Shown here: piece after piece, positions 17,289 through 35,408 of the stretch
How the letters are laid out: every line of letters starts with the position of its first letter
Position numbering within the stretch: position 1 is the first letter of the stretch
Origin: Oleiharenicola lentus
GTDB lineage: Bacteria; Verrucomicrobiota; Verrucomicrobiia; Opitutales; Opitutaceae
NCBI RefSeq assembly: GCF_004118375.1
Contig: NZ_SDHX01000002.1
Location: 1,167,001-1,231,000 of the forward strand
Reading direction: 5' to 3'
Length of the DNA: 64,000 nt
Translations under genes and position numbers: made by a program
Notes under the pieces: generated by a model
The model's database searches: none
The model's input: only the letters and a program-made list of their open reading frames with translations
Told to the model about the DNA's origin: nothing

Positions 17289-17420
17289 GGCGGCGGTTAT
17301 TAGAAACCACACGCGAAGCCACGCGGCCCGAAACGTCAAATGTTACCGCCTCCCCGCGAGGACTTTGAACTGGCCACGAAACGTGTTTATGACACTTTCG
17401 CGCCCAATACCCCTACCCCT

Positions 17421-19883
<2,463 letters not shown>

Positions 19884-21994: not shown

Positions 21995-22060
21995 GAAATT
22001 ATTCTGATAACACGCATCAGGTTTATCAACTCACGCGGTGCGCGCGGGCGCGGGTAGAGT
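21995..22060 (+). promoter_or_regulatory. Shared promoter, copy A (rhombotarget operon)
   Basis: From column 17 on it aligns without gaps with copies at 25432 and 31040: CGCATCAGGTTTATCAACTC then GCGCGC, then GGTAGAGT. 35 of its last 50 positions equal those of copy B. The hexamer TAGAGT (22055-22060) lies exactly 19 bases after CTCACG in the same place as in the other copies. The start codon at 22067 is 6 bases past the hexamer, which would give a leaderless mRNA. The upstream palindrome of copies B and C is not conserved here. Confidence 0.65.
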
Positions 22061-22066
22061 CGTCGC

Positions 22067-22954
22067 ATGAACTCCGTCCCTCCCCTCCGCCGTTCCGTTT
22101 CCCGTCTGTTCTCCGCCGGCCTCGCCGCCGCGCTCCTGCTCAGCCTCAGTGGCTGCGCCGGTTTCTGGGGCCAGCGCCGCCACCACGAGGCCAGCAGCGT
22201 CGTGCAGTTCCTCTACCCGGACAAAATGCCCTTCGTGCAGCCGGAGATTCCCACGCTGCGCCTGCCGCTGCGCGTGGGCGTGGCCTTCGTGCCCTCCGGC
22301 AGCCGCGGCTTCACGCCCATCGAGGCCGGTTTCACGGAGCAACAGAAGACCGAGCTGATGCGCCAGGTCGCCGGGCAGTTCAAGGCCCTGCCCTTCGTGC
22401 AGGCCATCGAGATCATCCCCGCCACCTACCTGCGCCCGGGCGGCGGTTTCGAAAACCTCGACCAGCTCCGCGCCATGCTCGGCATCGATGTCATCGCCCT
22501 CATCGCCTACGACCAGGCCCAGACCTCGACCGACACCGAGGCCAGCCTCGCCTACTGGACGATTGTCGGCGCCTACGTCATCCCCGCCCAGGCGCAGGCG
22601 ACGCACACATTGATGGAGGCCGTCGTTTACGACATCCCCAGCCGCAGCCTGCTCTTCCGCGCTCCCGGCACGAGCACGGTCAAGGGCCACGCCACGCTGA
22701 TCCGCAACAGCGCCGAGCTGCGCAAGGATTCGGCCCGGAGCTTCACCGAGGCGGCCGCACAAATGACCACCAACCTCGCGGCGGAGCTGGAGCTCTTCAA
22801 GGTCCGCGCCAAGGAGGAACCGCACACCGTGAAGATCGAGCACAAGCCCGGCTACACCGGCGGCGGCTCGCTCGACGCCGGCTTCGCGCTCCTTCTGTTG
22901 GTCGTCCTCGGCACGGCCGCCGTGCGCCAGCTGCGCCGGAGCAACCGGCCATGA
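22067..22954 (+). CDS. Rhombotarget lipoprotein
   Basis: 295 residues. Lipobox LSLSGC with Cys30, a body of about 230 residues with LRVGVAFVPSGSRGF, DVIALIAYDQAQTSTDTEAS and LFRAPGTSTVKGHATL, and at the C-terminus GYTGGGSLDAGF followed by a hydrophobic helix and the basic tail RQLRRSNRP. Gly-rich motif, membrane helix and Arg cluster form the rhombosortase sorting signal described for GlyGly-CTERM and rhombotarget proteins. The next gene is the protease and overlaps by ATGA, so cleavage of this lipoprotein by it is predicted. First gene behind promoter copy A. Confidence 0.85.
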   Translation: MNSVPPLRRSVSRLFSAGLAAALLLSLSGCAGFWGQRRHHEASSVVQFLYPDKMPFVQPEIPTLRLPLRVGVAFVPSGSRGFTPIEAGFTEQQKTELMRQVAGQFKALPFVQAIEIIPATYLRPGGGFENLDQLRAMLGIDVIALIAYDQAQTSTDTEASLAYWTIVGAYVIPAQAQATHTLMEAVVYDIPSRSLLFRAPGTSTVKGHATLIRNSAELRKDSARSFTEAAAQMTTNLAAELELFKVRAKEEPHTVKIEHKPGYTGGGSLDAGFALLLLVVLGTAAVRQLRRSNRP

Positions 22955-23685
22955 ATCCGACCGCCCTACAGATCGGAAAACTTGTCCGCGCGCCCTTGCT
23001 CCTCTTCGCCCTGCCGGCGGTGTTGGTCGCCTTCGCGACCGCACGTCACGGCCAGCTCGTGCTCGCCCGCAACGCCGTCGCCGAGGGCGAGGTCTGGCGG
23101 CTGTGGTCCGGGCACTGGGTGCATTTCTCCGCCTCGCACCTGCTCTGGAATCTCGCCGTGCTGCTCCCGGTCGGTATGTGGCTTGAAAGACTGCGTCCGG
23201 GGCTGCTGTGGCGGCACGTGCTGGTCGCAACACCCCTTGTCAGTTGCGCCATTCTCACGCTGGAACCGGGTCTGCAGACCTATGGCGGCCTGTCCGCGCT
23301 CGCCACCAGTGTCGTGGTGCTGCTCGCGCTGCACCAATGCCGCACCGCCCGCGCCGGCCGCTGGCTGTGGATCAGTGTGCTGGCGCTCGTCGCCGCCAAG
23401 ATTCTCGCCGAAGCCCGCTTCGGCGGCGCGGGTTTTGCCCGCTACGAGTCAGCCACCGTGCGCACAGCCTGGAGTGCGCATGCGGCCGGGGCATTGGCCG
23501 CCGTGTTTCACCAAGCCTGGATGCAGTGGAAGGAAGACGGGGCGTCCGGAAAGGTTACTTCAGCTTCTCCGGGTTGGCCCAGTCGGGCCAGACCTGCTGC
23601 GCGTAGCGCTGCATCTCCGCCACGACGGCGCGGACCATCGGGGACGGCTCGCCGTTCCACACCGCCACGAGCTCCATCCGCTTGA
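22951..23685 (+). CDS. rrtA: Rhombosortase (rhomboid-family intramembrane protease)
   Basis: 244 residues, about six membrane helices. Rhomboid features: WSGHWVHFSASHLLWNLAVL with H63xxxN67, the catalytic Ser115 in TYGGLSALATS, and the catalytic His177 in TAWSAHAAGAL. Small size and adjacency to its target lipoprotein fit the rhombosortase family, which cleaves C-terminal sorting signals. The GLSA form of the Ser motif differs from the common GxSG. The last 50 residues are low-complexity and come from the region overlapping the convergent LysR gene, so they may be a dispensable extension. Confidence 0.85.
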   Translation: MNPTALQIGKLVRAPLLLFALPAVLVAFATARHGQLVLARNAVAEGEVWRLWSGHWVHFSASHLLWNLAVLLPVGMWLERLRPGLLWRHVLVATPLVSCAILTLEPGLQTYGGLSALATSVVVLLALHQCRTARAGRWLWISVLALVAAKILAEARFGGAGFARYESATVRTAWSAHAAGALAAVFHQAWMQWKEDGASGKVTSASPGWPSRARPAARSAASPPRRRGPSGTARRSTPPRAPSA

Positions 23686-24466
23686 AGGTGTCGTCCAGCG
23701 GCAGCGCGCGGACCTGCGGATGCTGGGAGAGGGCCGGCACGCCGATATTGACCCCGACACCTTCGCCGTTGGCGACATACTGTGTCACCAGGCCGAGTGA
23801 ACTCGCCTCAATGCCCGTTGGCCAGACCACCTTGTGGCGCTTGAGGCCCTGCTGGAACAGCTGGCAGATGGCGTCGGACTCCGGGAGGCTGATCAGCGCC
23901 TCGGCGGGCTGGCCGCGGGCCCAGAGTTCGGCCGCGGTCTTGTAGCGCGAACGGCGCGGCACCAGGAGCACGAGGGGCAGCCGCAGCATCAGGTGGAAGC
24001 GCAGCGGTCGCGTAAGCCGCCGGGCGAGCGGCAGCACGGCGAGGTCGATCTCGCGATCGCGCACCCAGCCCTCCAGCTGCAGCTGCAGGCCGGAGCGCAG
24101 CGCGAGCCGCAGTTCGGGGTATTCCTGCTTCACGCGCTGCAGGACCGCCGGAAGATGCTCCCGCAGGATGTTCTCGGGCGCGCCGAGGCGGAGCTGGAGG
24201 GCGGCGCGCTGGCGCAGGCGCGACGCGGTTGCCTTCAGGTTGGAGAAGAACGGATCAACAAATCCGAACAGGCGCGTACCTGCCGCCGTGAGCCGGAACG
24301 GCTGCCGCTCGAAGAGCTTCACCCCGAGATCCTCCTCCAGCTGCAGGATCTGGCTGCTCACCGCCGGCTGCTGGATGCCGTAGGGCATGTGCCGCACCGC
24401 CGCGCTGATGCCGCCGTGGCGGGCCACGTAGTAGAACAACTCGAGGTGATGGATGTTGAGCGCCAC
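23555..24466 (-). CDS. LysR-family regulator, first of a tandem pair
   Basis: 303 residues, starting at a GTG. Winged helix-turn-helix at residues 3-60 (NIHHLELFYYVARHGGISAA, QQPAVSSQILQLEEDLG, KLFERQPFRLT) and a periplasmic-binding-like effector domain of about 210 residues. The recognition helix is nearly identical to that of the neighbour. Cooperative or hetero-oligomeric action with it is plausible. Ends 131 bases inside the convergent rhombosortase gene. Probably co-transcribed after the second LysR gene (4-base gap). Confidence 0.9.
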   Translation of the reverse strand: MALNIHHLELFYYVARHGGISAAVRHMPYGIQQPAVSSQILQLEEDLGVKLFERQPFRLTAAGTRLFGFVDPFFSNLKATASRLRQRAALQLRLGAPENILREHLPAVLQRVKQEYPELRLALRSGLQLQLEGWVRDREIDLAVLPLARRLTRPLRFHLMLRLPLVLLVPRRSRYKTAAELWARGQPAEALISLPESDAICQLFQQGLKRHKVVWPTGIEASSLGLVTQYVANGEGVGVNIGVPALSQHPQVRALPLDDTFKRMELVAVWNGEPSPMVRAVVAEMQRYAQQVWPDWANPEKLK

Positions 24467-24470
24467 GGCT

Positions 24471-25376
24471 TCAGTCCAGTTGGTCGGGCACGGCCCAGTC
24501 CGGAAATGTCCGGTGCGAATAGGCGCGCACCTCGTTGATCACGGTGCGCAGCAAGTCCGTGAGTTCGCCCCGCCAGAGCGCTCCCATGGTCAGCGGTTCA
24601 AAGCCCTCCAGCGGCAGCACCCGGATGCCCTTCGCCGGCATGCTCGCGAGTGCCGCGTAGTTCACGATGCCGAAGCCCTCCCCGTTCAGCACATAGCGCA
24701 TCACCAGCTCGACCGAGGTCACCTCGACCGCCTGCGGCCACGTGATGCGGCGGCGCTTCAGCTCGCGCTGGAAATCCAGCATGAAGCTGGTTTCCGCCGG
24801 CTGCGCCACGAGCGGCTCGGGGATTTTTTTGCGGGCCAGCAGTTCCTCCGCGCTGCGCCACGGCGCCGACTCGTGCACGAGCAGCACGAGCGGGATGCGG
24901 ATCAGCCGCAGTTGTCGCAACCGCACCGGCGGCCGCGCGCCGACCGACGTGATCGCGAGGTCGATCTGGCCTTCGTGCAGCCATTTCTCGACCTGCGACT
25001 GGTAGCCCGAGTGCAGGCTCAGCCGCACCTCGGGGTAGCGCGCCCGCACGTTCGCCATCACGACCGGCACATGGTCGCGCAACACCAGCTCGGCGCCGCC
25101 GATGCGCAGGTCCGGCCGCGCTCCCGCGCGCAATTCGGCCGCCACCGCCGCGATGTTGCCGAAGAACGGCTCCACAAATTCCCGCAGCTCCTGCCCCGCG
25201 GTCGTGAGCTGGAAGGGCTGCCGCTCAAACAGCTTCACGCCGAGCTCCTCTTCCAGCTGCAGGATCTGGCTGCTCACCGCCGGTTGCTGGATGCCGTAGG
25301 GCATGCGCCGGACTGCGGCGCTGATCCCACCATGCAGGGCCACGTAGTAGAACAACTCGAGGTGGTGAATGTTCAT
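24471..25376 (-). CDS. LysR-family regulator, second of a tandem pair
   Basis: 301 residues, ATG start. DNA-binding half residues 1-60 matches the downstream paralogue almost residue for residue (MNIHHLELFYYVALHGGISA, PYGIQQPAVSSQILQLEEEL), while the effector domain (RIGGAELVLRDHVPVV, VLNGEGFGIVNYAAL) has diverged. So the two probably bind the same or similar operators but sense different ligands. The start faces promoter copy B 55 bases away, so the intergenic region 25377-25504 may be a control point for both directions. Confidence 0.9.
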   Translation of the reverse strand: MNIHHLELFYYVALHGGISAAVRRMPYGIQQPAVSSQILQLEEELGVKLFERQPFQLTTAGQELREFVEPFFGNIAAVAAELRAGARPDLRIGGAELVLRDHVPVVMANVRARYPEVRLSLHSGYQSQVEKWLHEGQIDLAITSVGARPPVRLRQLRLIRIPLVLLVHESAPWRSAEELLARKKIPEPLVAQPAETSFMLDFQRELKRRRITWPQAVEVTSVELVMRYVLNGEGFGIVNYAALASMPAKGIRVLPLEGFEPLTMGALWRGELTDLLRTVINEVRAYSHRTFPDWAVPDQLD

Positions 25377-25431
25377 CGGCCCGCACCCTAACTAGGGTTC
25401 CCGCCGGGCCAGGGCAATGCCGTTTGCGCGC

Positions 25432-25497
25432 ATTGGTTCACTCAATGCGCGCATTTGGTTTATCAATTAACGCCCCGCGCGCCGGGTTTGGTAGGCT
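25432..25497 (+). promoter_or_regulatory. Shared promoter, copy B with operator-like palindrome (TRAP operon)
   Basis: ATTGGTTCACTCAAT (25432-25446) has the T-N11-A layout of LysR operators and lies within a longer inverted repeat GCGCGCATTG..CAATGCGCGC (25426-25435/25443-25452). Then 18 bases, AATTAACG (25465-25472), GCGCGC, and a -10-like TAGGCT (25492-25497). Aligns with copy C over 66 columns without a gap, 44 identical. ATG of the small ORF follows 7 bases after the hexamer. Confidence 0.7.
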
Positions 25498-25504
25498 GTG
25501 CGGC

Positions 25505-25576
25505 ATGATCTCCGTCGCCCTCATCCTCTCCGCTCTCGTCCTCCTGCTCGGCGTTGACGCGCAGGAAACCGTCTGA
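25505..25576 (+). CDS. 23-residue hydrophobic peptide ORF, possibly leaderless
   Basis: ATG at 25505, seven bases after a -10-like hexamer, TGA at 25574-25576, then 4 bases to the TatT gene. The peptide (MISVALILSALVLLLG, then VDAQETV) is one short membrane or signal-like segment with a small acidic end. No homologue known to me. It could be a real microprotein, a leader that couples TatT translation, or chance. No Shine-Dalgarno; the position relative to the promoter argues for leaderless translation. Confidence 0.45.
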   Translation: MISVALILSALVLLLGVDAQETV

Positions 25577-25580
25577 AGCC

Positions 25581-26519
25581 ATGCCTGCCGCCGCGCCCAC
25601 CTTGCTGGCTTCTCTCTGCCTGTTGTTGCTTACGGGTTGCGCGAGCATCGACCGGATGGCCGTCAACAAGCTCGGCGATGCGCTGGCCGGAGGCGGCACG
25701 GCCTTTGCCGGCGACAACGATCCCATCCTGATCCGCGACGCTTCCCCCTTCAGCCTGAAGCTGATGGAGAGCCTGCTGGCGCGGAATCCCCGGCACACCG
25801 GCCTGCGCCTCGCCGCCGCGAGCGGTTTCACCCAATACACCTACGCCTTCGTGCAACAGGAGGCCGACGCCACCGAGGAAACGGACGTCGTTGCCGCGGC
25901 AACCCTGCGCCGCAGGGCCGTTCGTCTCTATCAACGGGCGCGTGACCACGGTCTCGCCGGCCTGGAAATTCTGCACCCGGGCCTGCGCGACTCTCTCCGC
26001 CGCGACCCGCGGACCGCGGTCCGCTCCTGCGGCGCAGGCGACGTGCCCTTCCTTTACTGGACCGCCGCCGCGTGGGCGGCCGCCATCGTGAACGGCAAGG
26101 ACCAGCCCGACCTCATCGCCGACCTGCCGGCGGTCGAAGCGCTGATCGACCGCGCGCTAGAACTCGACGAAGCCTACGACCACGGCGCCATCCACGCCTT
26201 CCTCATCGCCTACGAACCCAGCCGGCCGGGCGCAGAGGGCGACCCGTTGGCCCGCGCCCGGGTCCATTTCGAGCGCGCGCTGGCGCTCACCGGCGGCCGC
26301 CACGCCGGCCCTTTGCTCACGTGGGCGGAGACCGTCTGCGTGCAACAACAGGACCGCGCGCGCTTCGAGGCGCTGTTGCAGCAGGCGCTCGCGATCGACG
26401 CCGACGCCCGGCCCGAGTGGCGGCTGGCCAACCTCGTTTTGCAAGAGCGCGCCCGGCGGCTGCTCGCACGCACCGACGATCTTTTCCTGCCCGTAGAAAC
26501 CACGCCCGCCACCCCATGA
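25581..26519 (+). CDS. TatT-like TRAP transporter-associated lipoprotein
   Basis: 312 residues. Lipobox LLLLTGC, then a helical TPR-like protein of the TatT family (TRAP-associated T component), with SPFSLKLMESLLARNPRHTG, WTAAAWAAAIVNGKD, ALELDEAYDHGAIHAFLIAY. TatT proteins form a trimeric ring on the outer face of the inner membrane or outer-membrane inner leaflet and feed hydrophobic ligands to a TRAP receptor. The next genes, a DctP-type receptor and a fused permease, fit this. Overlaps the receptor gene by ATGA. Confidence 0.88.
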   Translation: MPAAAPTLLASLCLLLLTGCASIDRMAVNKLGDALAGGGTAFAGDNDPILIRDASPFSLKLMESLLARNPRHTGLRLAAASGFTQYTYAFVQQEADATEETDVVAAATLRRRAVRLYQRARDHGLAGLEILHPGLRDSLRRDPRTAVRSCGAGDVPFLYWTAAAWAAAIVNGKDQPDLIADLPAVEALIDRALELDEAYDHGAIHAFLIAYEPSRPGAEGDPLARARVHFERALALTGGRHAGPLLTWAETVCVQQQDRARFEALLQQALAIDADARPEWRLANLVLQERARRLLARTDDLFLPVETTPATP

Positions 26520-27541
26520 AAGCCATCACCTGTCTGCTCTTTTGCTGCCTCGGCTCCACCCTGCTCGCCGAGCGCGTCACCATCCGCCTTGGCACCATCC
26601 TGCCCAGCGGCACCGCCCAGCACCAGGCCCTGTTGGAGATGGGCGAACAGTGGCGCAAGGACAGCGCCGGCGGCGTGAAGCTCACGCTCTACCCGGACGG
26701 CCGCCTCGGCGGCGAGGCCGAGATGGTGCGCAAGCTGCGCATCGGCCAGATCAACGCCGCGCTTTTCTCGGCCGTGGGCCTGTCGGAAATCGACCCCGGC
26801 GTGACCGGCCTGCAGATCATGCCGATGGTCTTCAACTCCTGGGCCGCGGTGGACCAGGTGCGCGAGAAGATGCGCGACCGGCTCGAGCAGCGGCTCCGCG
26901 CCAAAGGTTTCGAGGTGCTCTTCTGGGCCGACGCCGGCTGGGTGCGGTTCTTCTCGAAAGAACCCGCCGCCACGCCGGAGGATTTCAAGCGCATGAAGGT
27001 CTTCGTCTGGGCCGGCGACCAGGCCCAGCTGGAGATCATGCAGTCGCTCGGCTACCGGGCCGTGCCGCTGGAGACGACCGACATCCTGCTCGGCCTGAAC
27101 ACCGGCCTGGTGAACGTCGTGCCGATGCCGCCGCTCATCGCCCTCGCCGGGCAGATGAACACCGCCGCGCCACACATGCTCGACCTCAAGTGGTGCCCCA
27201 TCGTGGGCGCGGCGGTGGTACGGCGCGAGGTGTGGGAACAGGTGCCGGCCGCGCAACGCGCCGCCATTGTCTCCGCCGCCGAGGCCGCCGGCGCAAAGCT
27301 GCGCGCCCGCGGTCGCGAAGAGGACGAAGAATCCATCCGCGTGATGCGCCAGCGCGGCCTGCAGGTGCACACGCTTTCGCCCGAGGCGCGCGGCGAGTGG
27401 GAACGGCTCGTGCGCGACATCCACCCCAAGCTGCGCGGCACGAAGGTGCCGGCGGAAATCTTCGACGACGTCATGTCCGAAGTGGCGGTCTTCGCCGCCA
27501 CGGCCAGCCCGGCCCAGGCTCACGCCGCCGCGAAGCCATGA
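26516..27541 (+). CDS. TRAP transporter solute-binding protein (DctP family)
   Basis: 341 residues with a signal peptide (LLFCCLGSTLLAERV) and a DctP fold: VTIRLGTILPSGTAQHQALL, GGVKLTLYPDGRLGGEAEMV, and the ligand-binding Arg region of the mid domain (RMKVFVWAGDQAQLEIMQS). The WADAGWVRFFSKEP segment and the absence of the usual acidic-ligand Arg context mean the ligand cannot be called. It accompanies a TatT protein, so a lipophilic or bulky ligand is more likely than C4-dicarboxylate (family knowledge). ATGA overlaps with both neighbours. Confidence 0.9.
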   Translation: MKAITCLLFCCLGSTLLAERVTIRLGTILPSGTAQHQALLEMGEQWRKDSAGGVKLTLYPDGRLGGEAEMVRKLRIGQINAALFSAVGLSEIDPGVTGLQIMPMVFNSWAAVDQVREKMRDRLEQRLRAKGFEVLFWADAGWVRFFSKEPAATPEDFKRMKVFVWAGDQAQLEIMQSLGYRAVPLETTDILLGLNTGLVNVVPMPPLIALAGQMNTAAPHMLDLKWCPIVGAAVVRREVWEQVPAAQRAAIVSAAEAAGAKLRARGREEDEESIRVMRQRGLQVHTLSPEARGEWERLVRDIHPKLRGTKVPAEIFDDVMSEVAVFAATASPAQAHAAAKP

Positions 27542-29382
27542 ACGCCACCGCCGACATGTCCGCCGTTCTGATTCCCCCGTCACGTCCGGGAAACTGGCAC
27601 TTCGCCGAGGAGCTGGTCGGAGCCGGCGCCTTGGCGGCCATGGTGCTGCTGCCCATGGTGGAGATCGGCGCCCGGGCCGCCGGTTGGCCGGGATTGGCCG
27701 GGTCGGGCACGCTGGTGCAACACCTCACGCTCGTCGTCGGCATGGCCGGCGCGGCGCTCGCCGCCGGCCGGGGCCGGCTGCTGGCCTTCGCCAGTTCCGC
27801 GTCATTTCTGCCGACGCGCTGGCAAAGCCGCGCCCACGGCCTGACTCACGCCGGCTCCGCGGCCGTGACCTTTCTGCTGGCCGTGGCGTCCGCCCGCTTC
27901 GTGGCCGTCGAGCGCGAGTCCGCCAGTTTGCTGCTCGATCGCATCCCGCTCTGGTGGGTCCAATCGGTCCTGCCCCTGGGATTCGCCCTGATGACCGGCC
28001 GTTTGCTCTGGCGCGCCAGCACCGCCTGGCGTGGACGGCTGCTGAGCTTGGCGCTGGCGATGCTGGTGGTCGTGGCGGGCGTGTGGCCGCCCTGCGCCCG
28101 CGAGGCGTTGGTCTGGCCGGGCCTGGTCGGGCTGCTGCTCCTGGCCACGCTGGGCGCGCCGCTCTACGTGCCGATCGGGGGAGCCGCTCTCCTCCTTTTC
28201 CAAGGCGGCGGCCTGCCCATCGCCGCCATTCCGGTTGAACACTACCGGCTGGTCACCAACCCCGCACTGCCGTCGATCCCGTTGTTCACGCTGGCCGGCT
28301 GTCTCATGGCCGAGGGCGGGGCGGCCCGGCGGCTGGTGGCGCTTTCTCAGGCGCTGGTCGGGTGGTTCCATGGCGGGCCGGCGGTCGCGACCGCGTTGCT
28401 CTGCGCCTTCTTCACCGCGCTGACCGGCGGTTCGGGCGTCACCATCCTCGCCCTCGGCGGGCTGCTGATGCCGGTGTTGCGCTCGGCCCGCTACTCCGAG
28501 CGGGACGCCCTCGGCCTGCTCACCGGCGCCGGCTCGCTCGGCATCCTGCTGCCACCCTGCCTGCCGGTGATTCTGTATGCGGTCGTCGCCAAGGTCGGCA
28601 TCAACGAGATGTTTCTCGGCGGGCTTATTCCCGGTCTGCTGCTGATCGGGCTGACCATTGCGTGGGGCGTGCGCACCGGCGGGAAAAACCGCGGCCAACT
28701 CACTCCGTTCAACCTCGCGGCCGCGCGCCGCGCGATCTGGACGGCCAAGTGGGAGCTGCTGCTCCCGGTGGTGGCGCTCGGGGCGCTGTTCAGCGGCCGG
28801 GCCACGCCGGTCGAGGCCGCGGCCGTGACCGCCGCCTATGCGTTCATCGTCGAAACCTGCATCCACCGCGACCTGCACTGGCGGCGCGATCTCCTGCGTG
28901 TGCTGACCGAGAGCGTCCTGCTGGTCGGCGGCATCCTGCTGATTCTCGGGGTGGCGCTCGGGCTGACCAACTACCTGATCGACGTGCAGGCGCCCGACGC
29001 GCTGGCCGCCTGGGCGCGCGAACATGTGCCGAACCGCTGGCTGTTCCTGCTCGGCCTCAACGTCGTGCTGATCGTCGTCGGCGGCATTGTTGAAATCTAC
29101 GCCGCCATCGTGGTCGTGGTGCCGCTGCTGCTGCCGGTGGGACGCGAACTCGGCCTCGATCCCATCCACCTCGGCATCCTCTTCCTCGCGAACCTGGAGC
29201 TCGGCTTCCTCATGCCGCCGGTGGGGCTCAACCTGCTGCTCGCCGCCTCGCGCCTCAACAAGCCCGTCGCAGAGACCGCCCGCGCGGTGCTGCCCATGCT
29301 GCTGGTGCTTTTTCTGGGCGTGCTGCTCATCACCTACGTGCCGGCGCTGACCACCGCGCTGCCGCAGTTATTTCAGCGCTGA
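27538..29382 (+). CDS. TRAP transporter fused DctQ-DctM permease
   Basis: 614 residues of almost continuous membrane helices. The first ~150 residues are the small DctQ-type subunit (four helices), the rest the large DctM-type subunit with LPSIPLFTLAGCLMAEGG, FFTALTGGSGVTILALGGLL, TGAGSLGILLPPCLPVILY, and the C-terminal LELGFLMPPVGLNLLLAAS. These LPPC/MPPVG hairpin motifs mark the elevator transport core. Uses the sodium or proton gradient to import the ligand bound by the DctP-like protein. Third gene of the TatT-P-QM operon. Confidence 0.92.
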   Translation: MNATADMSAVLIPPSRPGNWHFAEELVGAGALAAMVLLPMVEIGARAAGWPGLAGSGTLVQHLTLVVGMAGAALAAGRGRLLAFASSASFLPTRWQSRAHGLTHAGSAAVTFLLAVASARFVAVERESASLLLDRIPLWWVQSVLPLGFALMTGRLLWRASTAWRGRLLSLALAMLVVVAGVWPPCAREALVWPGLVGLLLLATLGAPLYVPIGGAALLLFQGGGLPIAAIPVEHYRLVTNPALPSIPLFTLAGCLMAEGGAARRLVALSQALVGWFHGGPAVATALLCAFFTALTGGSGVTILALGGLLMPVLRSARYSERDALGLLTGAGSLGILLPPCLPVILYAVVAKVGINEMFLGGLIPGLLLIGLTIAWGVRTGGKNRGQLTPFNLAAARRAIWTAKWELLLPVVALGALFSGRATPVEAAAVTAAYAFIVETCIHRDLHWRRDLLRVLTESVLLVGGILLILGVALGLTNYLIDVQAPDALAAWAREHVPNRWLFLLGLNVVLIVVGGIVEIYAAIVVVVPLLLPVGRELGLDPIHLGILFLANLELGFLMPPVGLNLLLAASRLNKPVAETARAVLPMLLVLFLGVLLITYVPALTTALPQLFQR

Positions 29383-29403
29383 AGTCCGCACGTCTTCCCG
29401 CCC

Positions 29404-30054
29404 ATGCACCTGAAACAACTGCCCAACCTGATCAGCCTGTGTCGGCTGGCCGTGCTGCCTCCGCTGATGATCGGAGCCATGGCCGTCGGCGAACGCGCGT
29501 GGTTTTTCGGGTTGCTGTGCGTGGCCTGGGCAACCGATGCGCTGGACGGTTTTCTCGCGCGCCGGCTCAACGCCGTCACCGACCTGGGCCGGCTGCTCGA
29601 CAGCTGGGCCGACTACGTGACGCTCGCGCTGTGCCTCGCCGGTCTGGCCTGGCTCTGGCCCGAGGTGATGGCGCGCGAATGGCGCTGGATCGCCGCGGGC
29701 GTGACCGCCTGCTTCGCCGTCGTGATCTGCGGCCTGGTGCGCTACGGGCGGCCTCCCGGCTATCACACGCGTCTGGCCAAGCTCACGGCCATCGCGCTGC
29801 CCCTGGCCTTCGCCAGCCTGCTGGCGGGCTGGTCGGCCCGGCCGCTGCACGGGGTCGTGGTGCTGCAGGTCCTGAGCACGCTCGAGGAACTCGCGATTTT
29901 CCTGCTGCTGCCCGGCCACTCCGGCGAGGTGTCGTCGGTGAGGTCCGCCTGGCGCCAACGCCAAACCCGGCTGCCCGCGCCACCGTCGCAGCCCCCGGCC
30001 GGTCACCCCGCGCGTCCGCCCGCCCCATTTCCCTCCCATCCTTCCACGCCATGA
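29404..30054 (+). CDS. CDP-alcohol phosphatidyltransferase family enzyme
   Basis: 216 residues with six membrane helices. The full family motif is present at residues 45-70: DALDGFLARRLNAVTD followed by LGRLLDSWAD, fitting D-x2-DG-x2-AR-x8-G-x3-D-x3-D. The enzyme transfers a phosphoalcohol from a CDP-activated donor to an alcohol; the acceptor is unknown and could be glycerol phosphate, inositol or another alcohol. Unexpected in a TRAP operon, 21 bases after the permease. The tail (PPAPFPSHPSTP) is proline-rich and probably disordered. Overlaps the next gene by ATGA. Confidence 0.88.
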   Translation: MHLKQLPNLISLCRLAVLPPLMIGAMAVGERAWFFGLLCVAWATDALDGFLARRLNAVTDLGRLLDSWADYVTLALCLAGLAWLWPEVMAREWRWIAAGVTACFAVVICGLVRYGRPPGYHTRLAKLTAIALPLAFASLLAGWSARPLHGVVVLQVLSTLEELAIFLLLPGHSGEVSSVRSAWRQRQTRLPAPPSQPPAGHPARPPAPFPSHPSTP

Positions 30055-31064
30055 CCCTGTCCACCTCCTCGGGCCGCTTCGCCGGCATGTTTCGCGACGC
30101 TTACCTGCGCTCCCTTGCCGAGTATCGCTTCTTCTACGACGACATCGCCGAAATCGGCAATCCCACGGAGGCGGAACACGTGTTCTACTTCGTGCCCGGC
30201 ATCAACGGCACGCCGGGACAGATGCGCTTCCTGCTGCCCAGCCTGGTCCGCGTCTTCGGTCCGCGCTGCTACCTCAAGGCGCTGCATCTGCCGGAGTTCT
30301 CCGCGCGGCGGCCGGTCTGGGAGAAATACACCCTGGCGAACGTGGACCGAAAACTCGCGCGCCTGCGGGCCGATTTCGAGGATTTGCTCGCACGGTTTCC
30401 GCGCGTGAACGTGCTCTGTTCGAGCAACGGGTTCTACGACTTCGCGGCGGCGGCCGGCGGTCTGTGCGCCACGCTGCCGCCTGGCCGGTTGCACCTGCTG
30501 TGGGGCGCCTGCGCGCCGGACCGCTTCAAGCCCACGCCCTGGGAAAAGGTGTTCTTCCCGCTGAACGGGCTGCACCACGACGGGCAGGCCTGGTTCGCCT
30601 ATCCCAACCACAACCTTCTCCAGCTCTGCAATCCCGAGACCTCCGACTCCTTCGACTGGCGCGAGGGGGACAGCCGCCGGACCTTCGTCAAAGCGGACCT
30701 CGAATCGCGCTTCCGCTGCGCCGGCCTGCACTGGTGCTACACATCGCCCGCCCAGATCGGCCGCTGCGTCCGGCACGTCGTGGCGCAGATCGCGGGGCCG
30801 CTGGACATCCCGGCCGCCGCCCTGGTCGCCGCGAACGACGGTTACTGGCAGGGCCGGTCGCACGGCGAGATCGAGCGCGTCATCCTCGGCTACCTCCCGC
30901 GCTGCCGGATCGATTTCCGTCCGGCCTCCCATCTGTGGGTCGTGACCCCGACCTTCGCGACCGCCCTGCTCGAACGCCTGCGTCATGAGCCCGCTCACCG
31001 AACGGCCGCAACCCGCACGGCGGATGCCTTTGCCCGCCCATTGAGTGACTCAATACCGGCATAG
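30051..31064 (+). CDS. Hydrolase-like protein of unknown function
   Basis: 337 residues, no signal peptide. It has hints of an alpha/beta-hydrolase: strand FYFVPGINGTPGQMRFL, a nucleophile-elbow-like VLCSSNGFYDF near residue 121, a strand HLLWGAC, an acid in VAANDGYWQGR and a terminal His in SHLWVVTP. The sequence is not close to any named family I know. It starts inside the CDP-alcohol transferase stop (ATGA), so the two may act on the same substrate, such as a lipid or ester. Its last 25 bases overlap promoter copy C. Confidence 0.6.
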   Translation: MTLSTSSGRFAGMFRDAYLRSLAEYRFFYDDIAEIGNPTEAEHVFYFVPGINGTPGQMRFLLPSLVRVFGPRCYLKALHLPEFSARRPVWEKYTLANVDRKLARLRADFEDLLARFPRVNVLCSSNGFYDFAAAAGGLCATLPPGRLHLLWGACAPDRFKPTPWEKVFFPLNGLHHDGQAWFAYPNHNLLQLCNPETSDSFDWREGDSRRTFVKADLESRFRCAGLHWCYTSPAQIGRCVRHVVAQIAGPLDIPAAALVAANDGYWQGRSHGEIERVILGYLPRCRIDFRPASHLWVVTPTFATALLERLRHEPAHRTAATRTADAFARPLSDSIPA

Positions 31065-31105
31065 GTATTATGAATTAACGGTCTGCGCGCGCCTTCGGGT
31101 ATTCT
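31040..31105 (+). promoter_or_regulatory. Shared promoter, copy C with perfect palindrome (TonB receptor)
   Basis: ATTGAGTGACTCAAT (31040-31054) is a perfect palindrome with T-N11-A spacing, then 18 bases to AATTAACG (31073-31080), GCGCGCGC, and a TATTCT hexamer (31100-31105). Ungapped match to copy B (44 of 66). The palindrome lies inside the last codons of the preceding gene, whose TAG is at 31062-31064. The receptor ATG follows 70 bases further on, so this mRNA has a leader. Confidence 0.7.
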
Positions 31106-31175: not shown

Positions 31176-33530
31176 ATGAACTCCACCCGCCTCCTCCACC
31201 GCCTCGGGGTGATCCTTGCCCTCCTGCCTGCGCTCCTCCCGGCCCAGGAAACCATCCAACTCGACAAGCTCACCGTCACCGCCCAAGGACGCGTCCAGCC
31301 TGTCGGCGAGGTGCCGATTCCGCTCACGGCCTACATCGGCTCGTTCCTCGAGCAAAACGGCGTCAGCGACTACGAGGCGCTCGCGCCCTACGTGCCCGGG
31401 CTCTTTATCCAGGAACAGTCGCCCAACAATCCCGGCATCAACATCCGCGGCATCACCACCGACAGCGGAGACCCGCGCGGCGAATCCCGCGTGTCGATCT
31501 TCCAGGACGGCGTCTCCATCAGCCGCTCGCGCGCCAGCGTGGTCGAGCTGTTCGACCTCGAGCGCATCGAGGTGCTAAAGGGGCCGCAGGGCACGCTGTT
31601 TGGGCGCGGGGCGGAGATCGGCGCCGTCTCGATCGTGCAGCGCAAGGCCGCGAACGAGCGCTCCGGTTCGCTAACCGTAGGCTTCGGCAGCGACCGTGAA
31701 TACCGCGTCGCGGGCCACCTCAACGCCCCCCTGGTGGACGGCAAACTGTTCGGCCGCCTAGCGTTCACCCACGTGCAGCACGACGGATCCATCGAAAATC
31801 TCGCCGACGGCTCCGACCTCAACGGCAAGCACACCACGGCGCTGCGGGCCGCGTTGCGGTGGCAGCCGACCGACCGCACCACCGCCGACCTGATCGCCAA
31901 CTGGCAGCACGACACGCCGCCGGGCACGGCGTTCAAGAGCGGCGTCATTCCCACCTCGCGCGGCGACACCAATCCCTTCAGCGCGGCCGAGCTGACCCGC
32001 GGCTCCGCGCTCGGGGTGGACCGCACGGTCGGCGGCCTCACCGGCATCGTCACCCACGAGCTCAACCCGGCCTGGTCGGTCACCAGCATCACCGGCTGGC
32101 GCGAGTATGATGCCTACGAATCCTTCGACGCCGACGGCTCCGGCCTTTACCTGCTGGAGTTCGCCGAGGACGCGCGCGGCCGGCAGCTCAGCCAGGAGTT
32201 GCGTTTCAACTACGACGCGGACGGACGCTTCGCCGGCTTCTTTGGCGCGAGCTGGTTCCGGGAGAACGGTTCGGCGCGCGTGCCCTTCTCGACCGACGAA
32301 CGTCAGCTCTGGCCCTTCCTGTCCGGCTCCTTCGCCAGCGGGCTGGTGCAGGCCGGCGTGCCCGGCGCGCTGGTTAACTTCGCCGTGCCCACTCTGAATC
32401 CGTTCATCCCGCAGGCCACGCTGCCGGCGACCTTCGCCGCCTTCGCCAATCCCGCGCTGCCCCCGTCGCTGCAAGGCCTCTCCTTCCTCGCCGGTGCGCC
32501 GTTGCAGGGCCGCCGCACCGACGAATATACGCAGTCGGGCCGCACCCAGGCCTACGATGTTTTCGCCGACGGCACCTGGCGCGTTACCGACCGGCTCGAA
32601 GTCACCGCCGGCCTGCGGGTGACCGAGGAGAAGCTCACGTCCGGTTATGAAGTGAGCAACGGCACGCCGCCCGCCACGCTCGGCTTCATCCTCAACGCGA
32701 TCCCCGGCTATCCCTACCTGCCCTCGGGCGGAAAGCGCGAGGCGAAGGACTCGCATTCCTCCTGGGACGGCCGGGTCGTCGTCCAATACCAGTTCCGGCC
32801 CACGCTGAACGCCTACGCCAGCGTGAGTCGCGGACACCGGGCGCCCAGCCTGCTGGTCGATTCCACCAGCGTCACCACCGCGGGCGAGGAAGAGGTCTGG
32901 AACTACGAGGCCGGCTGCAAGGGCACCCTGGGCAACGGCCGGCTGCAGTGGTCCGCCTCGGTGTTTCAATATGACTACGCGCACTTCCAGACCAGCGTGC
33001 TGAGCCTGGGCCGCTTCACCGTGCTCGACGCCGGCAACGCCACCGGCCGCGGTTTCGAGTTTGCGCTGCAGGGTGTCGTCAACGAGCGCCTGTCGGTGTT
33101 CGCCACCTATGCCCACACGGATGCGACCTTCGACGACAGCGGCGACGACGGCCAGCCGCAGGCCTATGCCGGTTACTCGTTCCGCCTGACGCCGCGCAAC
33201 GCCTTCTCGTTCGGCGGCACGCTCACGCTGCCCGCCGGCAACGGCCGGTTCTTTGTGACGCCGACCTATCAATATAAATCGGCCCACTGGTTTGAGGACA
33301 ACAACGCCTCCTTCGGCGGCCGTCTGCGGCAGGACGGCTACGGGCTCGCCCATGTGCGCCTGGGTTGGCGCTCGGCCCAGGATCGTTGGGAGATCTCCGT
33401 CCATGCGACCAACCTCTTTGACGAGGAGTATCTGATCGATGCCGGCAACGTCGGCGGCTCATTCGGCATCCCGACCTTCGTGGCCGGCGCACCCCGGCGC
33501 TGGGGAGTGCAGGCCGGTTATCGTTGGTAA
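31176..33530 (+). CDS. TonB-dependent receptor
   Basis: 784 residues. Signal peptide (LGVILALLPALLPAQ), plug with IQLDKLTVTAQGRVQ, YVPGLFIQEQSPNNPGINIR and ERIEVLKGPQGTLFGRGAEI, then a long barrel ending RRWGVQAGYRW. Plug style recalls receptors for small iron complexes or vitamins rather than glycans (no SusC-type extension). In the regulon with the TRAP transporter; a shared substrate that crosses the outer membrane here and the inner membrane by TRAP is an attractive inference. The ATG was chosen over a TTG ten codons upstream. Confidence 0.92.
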   Translation: MNSTRLLHRLGVILALLPALLPAQETIQLDKLTVTAQGRVQPVGEVPIPLTAYIGSFLEQNGVSDYEALAPYVPGLFIQEQSPNNPGINIRGITTDSGDPRGESRVSIFQDGVSISRSRASVVELFDLERIEVLKGPQGTLFGRGAEIGAVSIVQRKAANERSGSLTVGFGSDREYRVAGHLNAPLVDGKLFGRLAFTHVQHDGSIENLADGSDLNGKHTTALRAALRWQPTDRTTADLIANWQHDTPPGTAFKSGVIPTSRGDTNPFSAAELTRGSALGVDRTVGGLTGIVTHELNPAWSVTSITGWREYDAYESFDADGSGLYLLEFAEDARGRQLSQELRFNYDADGRFAGFFGASWFRENGSARVPFSTDERQLWPFLSGSFASGLVQAGVPGALVNFAVPTLNPFIPQATLPATFAAFANPALPPSLQGLSFLAGAPLQGRRTDEYTQSGRTQAYDVFADGTWRVTDRLEVTAGLRVTEEKLTSGYEVSNGTPPATLGFILNAIPGYPYLPSGGKREAKDSHSSWDGRVVVQYQFRPTLNAYASVSRGHRAPSLLVDSTSVTTAGEEEVWNYEAGCKGTLGNGRLQWSASVFQYDYAHFQTSVLSLGRFTVLDAGNATGRGFEFALQGVVNERLSVFATYAHTDATFDDSGDDGQPQAYAGYSFRLTPRNAFSFGGTLTLPAGNGRFFVTPTYQYKSAHWFEDNNASFGGRLRQDGYGLAHVRLGWRSAQDRWEISVHATNLFDEEYLIDAGNVGGSFGIPTFVAGAPRRWGVQAGYRW

Positions 33531-34622: not shown

Positions 34623-35408
34623 ATGCAAATCCACCCCGCCCGGCTCGCCCCGCTTTTCGTTGTGGCGGCTCTGACCCTCACCGGCTGCGTCTCCGCCAAA
34701 TACAAGCTGGCGCCGAAGTCCCCCGCCCACACCTCGCCTCCGCCCGCCTTGGAGATCACGGCGGCCAGCTCTACGGCCCATGCCACGCTGCACACGGTCG
34801 TCGTTTTTCACGGTCCCGGTTCGTGGAAGAGGGATGCGTATTGGGACGAGTATATCGTCACCCTGACGAATACCGCCGAGGTCCCGCTCACCTTCGACCA
34901 AGCGGTGCTCTACAACCTCACCGACCATGAGAGCCGGCCGGGGCACAACCCCTGGGAGCTGGATAAAATCAGCCGGCATCGCCTGAAGGTGGCGAAACGC
35001 ACCGGCCGCAACCTCGCGCTGGGGGTCGGCATAACGGGCGCGTGGGTCGGCTCCCTCTCGCTGGTGGCCTCCAACATCACGATCTGGGGCGGCGTCTCCA
35101 ATGCCAGCGCAGTGACCGCCGGCGCCGCCGGGATGATCGGAATCCCACTGGTCCTGCTCGGCAGCAGTGTCCGCACCATGGTCGCCCGCCGCGCCATCGC
35201 CACGGAATTTGCCCGGCGGGAACTGGACCTCCCCCTGACCCTCGCCCCCGGCGATTCCCGGACCGGCAGTCTGTTTTTCCCGGTCACACCGGGTCCCACG
35301 CGATTGTTCCTGCAAGGCGGGGACGCTTCAGGCCATGGCCATGACCTCACGCTGGACCTGACGCCCTTGGCCGGTCTTCACCTCCGGCCGGCGAAACCTG
35401 CACGCTGA
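34623..35408 (+). CDS. Lipoprotein of unknown function
   Basis: 261 residues. Lipobox LTLTGC, a Pro-rich stretch (KSPAHTSPPPALE), a beta domain with YIVTLTNTAEVPLTFDQAVL that looks like an Ig- or C2-type sandwich, then a hydrophobic Gly-rich hairpin GVGITGAWVGSLSLVAS and VTAGAAGMIGIPLVLLG near residues 125-180, and a C-terminal beta domain with LDLPLTLAPGDSRTGSLFFP. Could be a membrane-anchored cell-envelope protein. Gap of 149 bases after the previous lipoprotein. Function unknown. Confidence 0.7.
   Translation: MQIHPARLAPLFVVAALTLTGCVSAKYKLAPKSPAHTSPPPALEITAASSTAHATLHTVVVFHGPGSWKRDAYWDEYIVTLTNTAEVPLTFDQAVLYNLTDHESRPGHNPWELDKISRHRLKVAKRTGRNLALGVGITGAWVGSLSLVASNITIWGGVSNASAVTAGAAGMIGIPLVLLGSSVRTMVARRAIATEFARRELDLPLTLAPGDSRTGSLFFPVTPGPTRLFLQGGDASGHGHDLTLDLTPLAGLHLRPAKPAR

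Follow-up and report, generated by a model that had tools for sequence, protein, structure and literature searches.

Genes and promoter copies at the locus

Three similar copies of a putative promoter element, A (21995-22060), B (25432-25497) and C (31040-31105), precede three operons on the forward strand of a 64,000-nucleotide stretch of the Oleiharenicola lentus genome (contig NZ_SDHX01000002.1, positions 1,167,001 to 1,231,000), referred to here as the window and numbered from its first letter. The original prediction, made from the sequence, held that the copies align without gaps and define one LysR regulon, and its coordinates and counts are exact: on recounting, B and C agree at 44 of 66 columns and A and B at 35 of the last 50, while A and C agree at 31 of the last 50. 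The best other match on the plus strand of the window reaches 32/66 to B and 31/66 to C, against background means of ∼17 and ∼16, respectively (standard deviation ∼3.4), and the best other 50-base matches reach 25–27. On the minus strand the highest value for B, 37/66 columns, comes from its own palindrome read in reverse; elsewhere matches are 33/66 or less. The likeness of the three copies is real.

The predicted gene content of the three operons, namely rhombotarget/rhombosortase genes behind A, a TatT-TRAP-CDP-alcohol operon behind B and a TonB receptor behind C, is confirmed by profile matches. The ATG of the rhombotarget lipoprotein (22067..22954; TIGR04179, 308 bits, cut-off 150) lies 6 bases after the TAGAGT of copy A, and the adjacent gene encodes rhombosortase (22951..23685; TIGR03902, 100.3 bits, cut-off 84), so that the enzyme and its target both score above cut-off. 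Two LysR genes lie on the minus strand between copies A and B, as claimed, and both match PF00126 and PF03466 above cut-off: LysR1 (23555..24466), a tandem copy 51% identical to its neighbor, and LysR2 (24471..25376), which is divergent from copy B and is proposed as the regulator in view of its adjacency to the site in relatives.

Seven bases after the TAGGCT of copy B, the ATG of a 23-codon hydrophobic frame (25505..25576) opens what is possibly a leaderless small membrane protein or a leader; a 23-residue hydrophobic frame likewise stands 7 bases after TAnnnT in another genome (G012, L263), ahead of different genes. Behind it lie genes of a tripartite ATP-independent periplasmic (TRAP) transporter: the T-component TatT (25581..26519; PF16811, 286 bits, cut-off 26.5), the family assignment of which agrees with the neighboring TRAP genes, a DctP-type binding protein (26516..27541; PF03480) and a fused DctQ-DctM permease (27538..29382; PF04290, PF06808). 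They are followed by a CDP (cytidine diphosphate)-alcohol phosphatidyltransferase, a predicted phospholipid head-group enzyme (29404..30054; PF01066), for which the best NCBIfam models, ClsA and PgsA, both score below their own cut-offs. The last frame of this operon (30051..31064) gave no match in Pfam and NCBIfam scans; SSNG/SSTG, Asp263 and His294, conserved in an alignment of three sequences, suggest an alpha/beta hydrolase, and its predicted model (mean predicted local distance difference test score 44.5) was too poor for a fold search. Copy C overlaps the end of this hydrolase-like frame and precedes the TonB-dependent receptor (31176..33530; PF00593, PF07715), downstream of which lie two lipoprotein-like frames. 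A small lipoprotein, lipoD2 (34623..35408, plus strand), 3.5 kb behind copy C, has homologues behind ∼6 other sites.

Occurrence of the element in the genome and the family

A BLAST search of the same genome with copy B DNA was too insensitive and was replaced by a matrix and a model. Loci were collected by protein, using TatT from 57 genomes and the rhombotarget lipoprotein, LysR2 and the TonB receptor from 95 genomes each. Among 98 loci, the matrix built from A, B and C alone detected 11 additional distinct sites, spread over 10 other genomes; seven of these precede rhombotarget genes. An alignment of 29 sites then yielded a sequence-only model, R1. In 21 genomes of the genus R1 scores are either ≥26 bits or ≤17.1 bits. 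The O. lentus genome (4.7 Mb) contains six strong sites of 27.8–42.1 bits, the next match scoring 12.3 bits. Three of the six are copies A (42.1 bits), B (41.5 bits) and C (34.8 bits); the others are C2:375358, before a PF10520 lipid desaturase with a LysR paralogue alongside, C1:726762, before a DUF2339 protein, and the weakest of the six, C2:208603, which a protein without assigned family follows 264 bases on. Six randomly placed sites would include three within 9.1 kb with a probability of 0.00024, for a distance that was chosen post hoc.

Across 200 genomes of the family Opitutaceae, R1 identifies 106 sites in 59 genomes (E 1e-4 or better). Targets and neighbors were analyzed in a set of 90 sites from 81 sources, comprising 94 matches minus the four weakest (21.7 bits or less) and including two sites added from the genus-level search. 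Eighteen of the 106 family sites lie outside the regions scanned for this set, and one of these, in genome G096 (G096:C80), was examined separately.

Anatomy of the operator and promoter

Over 89 sites the element has a constant order: CCATC, nine bases and GAT form the T-N11-A dyad, GCATC lies 8 to 4 bases before TTTATC, and there follow TTTATCGATTAACG, or variants such as CTTATCAACTCACG, and TAnnnT, the gap to the latter being 19 bases in 66 sites and 18 in 23. For a transcription start 7 bases past TAnnnT, the center of the dyad falls near -66, GCATC near -51 and the TTTATC/TTTATCGATTAACG box near -40. LysR-type regulators usually bind boxes at -65 and -35. The prediction that T-N11-A represents the LysR operator form agrees with this position of the dyad.

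In the window, copy A (22004..22060 in the model) consists of GAT (22006-22008), GCATCAG (22014-22020), TTTATCAACTCACG (22022-22035) and the -10 hexamer TAGAGT (22055-22060). Copy B, between the divergent LysR2 gene and the TatT operon, consists of the palindrome ATTGGTTCACTCAAT (25432-25446), GCATTTG (25451-25457), TTTATCAATTAACG (25459-25472) and TAGGCT (25492-25497), and copy C of the palindrome ATTGAGTGACTCAAT (31040-31054), GCATAGG (31059-31065), ATTATGAATTAACG (31067-31080) and TATTCT (31100-31105). The palindrome ATTG-N7-CAAT, expected in all three, is thus present in B and C, whereas A lacks the left arm; similarly, the common sequence box reads AATTAACG in B and C but AACTCACG in A, and both forms recur in relatives. 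GCGCGC, which had been listed as an element, sits in the spacer, which relatives do not conserve, and at a G+C content of 67% is probably incidental. The GCATC box, which the original list lacks, reads GCATT in B and GCATA in C and belongs by comparison to the best conserved stretches of the element. The alternative that GATG-N5-CATC is the true dyad and ATTG-N7-CAAT incidental was dropped, because the geometry of the 89 sites identifies ATTG-N7-CAAT with the T-N11-A box, which in B and C is offset by a single base.

The distance from TAnnnT to the start codon depends on the class of target. An ATG follows 5–9 bases past TAnnnT at 29 of 95 sites compared with 61 of 855 background windows (7.1%). 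In rhombotarget genes it follows after 6–9 bases in 14/14 cases, and the simplest reading for that class is therefore that these mRNAs are probably leaderless; other classes begin further on (desaturase 18–56 bases, TatT 83 or more). A sub-class, often with TTATTCGATTAACC/G, stands before DUF2339 membrane proteins without an adjacent LysR gene and may have another regulator (L166, L168, which is C1:726762 of O. lentus, L187, L197, L207, L208, L260 and L262).

Association of the element with a LysR subfamily

A regulator beside its target with the operator between them, as at copy B, recurs in the set. A divergent LysR gene starts 60–350 bases upstream of 38 of the 90 sites (for genomes not used in training, 25 of 57), and the DNA-binding segment MN(I/V)HHLELFYYVA-HGGIS-AVR-(M/I)PYGIQQPAVS is nearly constant among these 38 regulators. 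The O. lentus genome itself has 10 LysR genes by PF00126, four of which are LysR2 relatives at E 1e-40 or better. In 95 genomes LysR and site occur together in 21 and are both missing in 68, a table that is not independent because R1 was trained in part on LysR-adjacent sites.

The desaturase provides a cleaner test. A search with 12 aligned desaturase proteins led to 45 loci, all verrucomicrobial, of which ∼11 overlap records already in the set and at least two (L209, L215) correspond to training contigs; two records begin inside the gene, leaving 43 with upstream DNA. An R1 match lies just upstream in 31 of the 43, comprising 21 at ≥26 bits and 10 at 14.3–23.3 bits, the latter partly at the whole-genome noise level and counted because of where they lie; another two matches, of 13.7 and 12.1 bits, were scored as absent. 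A divergent LysR of the subfamily is found at 27 of the 43 loci, and a site is present in all 27 (17 strong, 10 weak). Four loci have a site without LysR and 12 have neither. In addition, LysR and operator distances are correlated (0.27, reached in 0 of 5000 permutations), and one helix-turn-helix residue is associated with the CAC form of the TTTATC box (Fisher p 0.002, 37 pairs). Both relations are confounded by ancestry and fit co-evolution of LysR and operator.

A membrane pyrophosphatase gene also lies near this region in the window (17340-19883), and one is close in relatives as well (L130, L140, L141, L152, L158, L176, L190, L263 and L265).

Targets behind the element

Sites are present upstream of orthologous operons in relatives, where their absence had been named as grounds for refutation. 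Of 18 rhombotarget-lipoprotein loci, 10 have the element upstream of the gene (with O. lentus set aside, 9 of 17), and the TonB orthologue of G066 has a site. In G096 the order LysR, LysR, site (27.8 bits), TatT, DctP, DctQM, hydrolase is kept, with ∼730 bases from site to TatT and with 68, 62, 61 and 65% identity to the window's TatT, DctP, DctQM and hydrolase, respectively; the TatT operon region of G096 gave no match to the CDP-alcohol gene.

Among the 90 sites the targets are the rhombotarget lipoprotein (14), LplT and/or Aas (13, of which six follow rhombotarget genes), the PF10520 desaturase (12), amidohydrolase (7), lipoD2 (6), DUF2339 (6), PlsA/Ger-like proteins (5), TatT-TRAP and the TonB receptor (4 each, including the window), B12 radical S-adenosylmethionine (SAM) proteins (3) and small classes, with about a dozen sites before a gene without assigned family. 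Operons with desaturase, LplT/Aas or PlsA/Ger-like genes stand behind 30 of the 90 sites. One cluster of major facilitator superfamily targets, which we take to be Spinster-like, is assigned to MFS_1/OATP by Pfam.

Copy C is tied to a lipid gene by G107 (L156/L234) and L229, where desaturase and TonB receptor stand, in this order, behind one site. In lineages that lack this LysR the desaturase also adjoins LplT (L247, L249) or has a PlsA/Ger-like gene nearby (L253).

Several details of the target list are recorded as side observations. At L133 (G066) the frame leading into the TonB gene starts, by eye, with desaturase-like residues; the profile search of the 90 sites did not report a desaturase there, and the frame is possibly the remnant of a desaturase-TonB operon. 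The B12-binding radical SAM proteins (L152, L164 with DUF4070, and L171) have BchE and HpnJ as best NCBIfam models, far below cut-off, and a lipid role for them is only a guess. The seven amidohydrolases, secreted-looking Amidohydro_2 proteins, stand behind sites without adjoining LysR (L136, L146, L167, L179, L192, L196 and L200).

Comparison with known systems

In the general LysR scheme a regulator is divergent from its target, with an operator box near -65. The present element resembles this scheme in the divergent pair, in T-N11-A near -65 and in the boxes near -40 that overlap a poor -35, but differs in serving several operons, in a membership that depends on the species and in targets that are probably leaderless.

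The transporter resembles the TatPT/TatQM TRAP system of Treponema pallidum, the PDB chains of which are matched by the window's TatT (Tp0956, 3u64, E 1.7e-29) and DctP (Tp0957, among its best PDB matches), and it is unlike that system in its fused DctQ-DctM, in the CDP-alcohol and hydrolase genes behind it and in the LysR-type site in front. BstC, according to PMC10942540, is a sterol-binding lipoprotein working with BstA and BstB and not with a TRAP permease. The window's TatT belongs to the same T-component family and matches PDB 8g52, which we infer to be BstC, at E 1.9e-12, but in contrast to BstC with its partners it stands with TRAP permease genes. The likeness of TatT to Tp0956 and to the sterol-binding BstC supports a lipid ligand, short of proof.

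CarF/PEDS1 and FAD4 are PF10520 lipid desaturases, and the residues essential in PEDS1 are taken from PMC9131029 and PMC8960569. The site-linked desaturase (PF10520, 130.7 bits) has, judged by spacing, the eight essential histidines and the essential aspartate (PEDS1 D100) so described, invariant in 12/12 proteins as H29, D33, H54, H55, H108, H112, H137, H140 and H141. Unlike PEDS1, it carries Leu at the H131 position and Asn at the F118 position in 12/12. The candidate function of plasmalogen desaturase was rejected, since these PEDS1-specific residues are absent and the protein scores 75.2 bits against a CarF equivalog cut-off of 500; it may instead act on acyl chains like FAD4.

The PlsA/Ger-like proteins carry two PF01869 stretches and PF09989 (DUF2229) in one chain (2/2 proteins scanned). 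They share this two-activation-domain layout with the PlsA/PlsR and Ger ester reductases and are predicted reductases; PMC13274423 links the layout to Ger and describes PlsA and Ger as inseparable by sequence. In facultative anaerobes, according to PMC9702350, a TetR/AcrR-like gene lies upstream of pls, whereas the regulator here is of the LysR type. The adjacent LplT and Aas genes recall the LplT-Aas salvage pair, these being the best NCBIfam models (208.6 and 721 bits) with scores under the curated cut-offs of 297 and 1349, the latter for a longer fused model. In contrast to the known pair, they often stand behind rhombotarget genes and a LysR-type site. Searches of the open-access PubMed Central (PMC) library listed no account of such a regulon.

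A proposed regulon for envelope phospholipid upkeep

The comparison among genomes lends good support to one LysR-type regulon whose operator is a T-N11-A box. The proposed theme of transport across both membranes with rhomboid-type processing was too narrow, because 30 of the 90 sites head lipid-gene operons. The commonest recognizable other targets are phospholipid genes, and phospholipid upkeep is the most coherent theme for the regulon. As a whole, the observations are best explained, with a probability of roughly 0.7, by activator-dependent promoters of a LysR subfamily that would serve a regulon for envelope phospholipid upkeep.

Under this explanation, copies A, B and C would be one activator-dependent promoter type of a LysR regulon spread through Opitutaceae. 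LysR2, and perhaps also LysR1, would bind the T-N11-A box near -66. Together with the boxes GCATC, near -51, and TTTATCGATTAACG, near -40, this binding would bring RNA polymerase to a promoter whose TAnnnT -10 is clear and whose -35 is poor. Transcription would begin ∼7 bases after TAnnnT, from which it is proposed that the rhombotarget-lipoprotein mRNA and the 23-codon frame are leaderless. We infer from its gene neighborhoods that the regulon would maintain envelope phospholipids by import or salvage, through the TonB receptor, TatT-TRAP (for the window's own transporters a putative role) and LplT/Aas, by chain remodelling, through the PF10520 desaturase and in some species the PlsA/Ger-like reductase, and by head-group exchange through the CDP-alcohol enzyme; the rhombosortase-processed lipoprotein would be a further part.

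A more specific version is tentative, and we would sooner expect it to fail in some part than to hold throughout: a LysR subfamily found in Opitutaceae and in other, related Opitutae would sense a phospholipid-derived signal and run a remodelling regulon that joins an O2-dependent desaturase, in some species a PlsA/Ger-type reductase, lysophospholipid salvage, a two-membrane TatT-TRAP importer of lipids or fatty acids and a leaderless promoter class.

Several findings weigh against a phospholipid regulon under LysR control. At 52 of the 90 sites there is no divergent LysR gene 60–350 bases upstream, and in the 95-genome table LysR occurs without a site in two genomes (G025, G071) and a site without a close LysR in four (G001, G011, G021 and G061, the last weak at 21.4 bits). 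The site is absent at 8 of 18 rhombotarget loci (of these, L046 offers just 379 bases of DNA upstream of the gene, and L053 is at a contig end), at 10/10 TatT loci first collected from nine relatives and at seven of the eight TonB loci tested, out of 12. Because the site is missing at so many of these loci, membership of the regulon shifts between species. DUF2339, amidohydrolase, C92 peptidase and unassigned targets have no known lipid role, and the departures of the desaturase from PEDS1 and CarF and of the LplT and Aas genes from their curated models count on the same side.

The diversity of the targets, the dozen or so sites without an assigned gene and the frequent lack of a site before TatT, TonB and rhombotarget genes in other genomes would also be expected if the regulon had no lipid theme and different species had brought unrelated envelope genes under this one regulator, in response, for instance, to an organic acid imported through the TRAP transporter or to stress. 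This is unlikely given that a third of the sites (30/90) head desaturase, LplT/Aas or PlsA/Ger-like operons, that the desaturase keeps LplT or PlsA/Ger-like neighbors even where this LysR is lacking, and that the TonB receptor can share a site with the desaturase ahead of it. That the element is instead a general promoter class, the signature of a sigma factor with LysR genes nearby by chance, is very improbable: TAnnnT and a short distance to ATG do resemble ordinary promoter features, and most sites lack a close divergent LysR, but only six strong sites occur in 4.7 Mb, a T-N11-A dyad lies upstream of the promoter, and the desaturase loci (27 with both LysR and site, 0 with LysR only, 4 with site only, 12 with neither; n=43) tie the element to the regulator. 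Least credible of all is a dispersed repeat, mobile element or RNA motif, to which three similar copies inside 9 kb might point; the copies resemble one another in the operator and -10 region only, their geometry stands before different genes in many genomes at a fixed distance to the start codons of orthologous genes, and an Rfam scan of the surrounding 10.1 kb gave no family at gathering score.

The recurrence of this promoter, often near a likely regulator and often ahead of membrane-lipid genes, points to an envelope control circuit that no paper listed in the open-access PMC searches describes. If the phospholipid reading is true, Verrucomicrobiota would have a transcriptional regulon for phospholipid remodelling, TatT-type TRAP transporters would gain a concrete candidate cargo, a lipid, and rhombosortase and its lipoprotein would be tied to lysophospholipid salvage genes, by way of a promoter spotted by eye in one window and traceable through the whole family.

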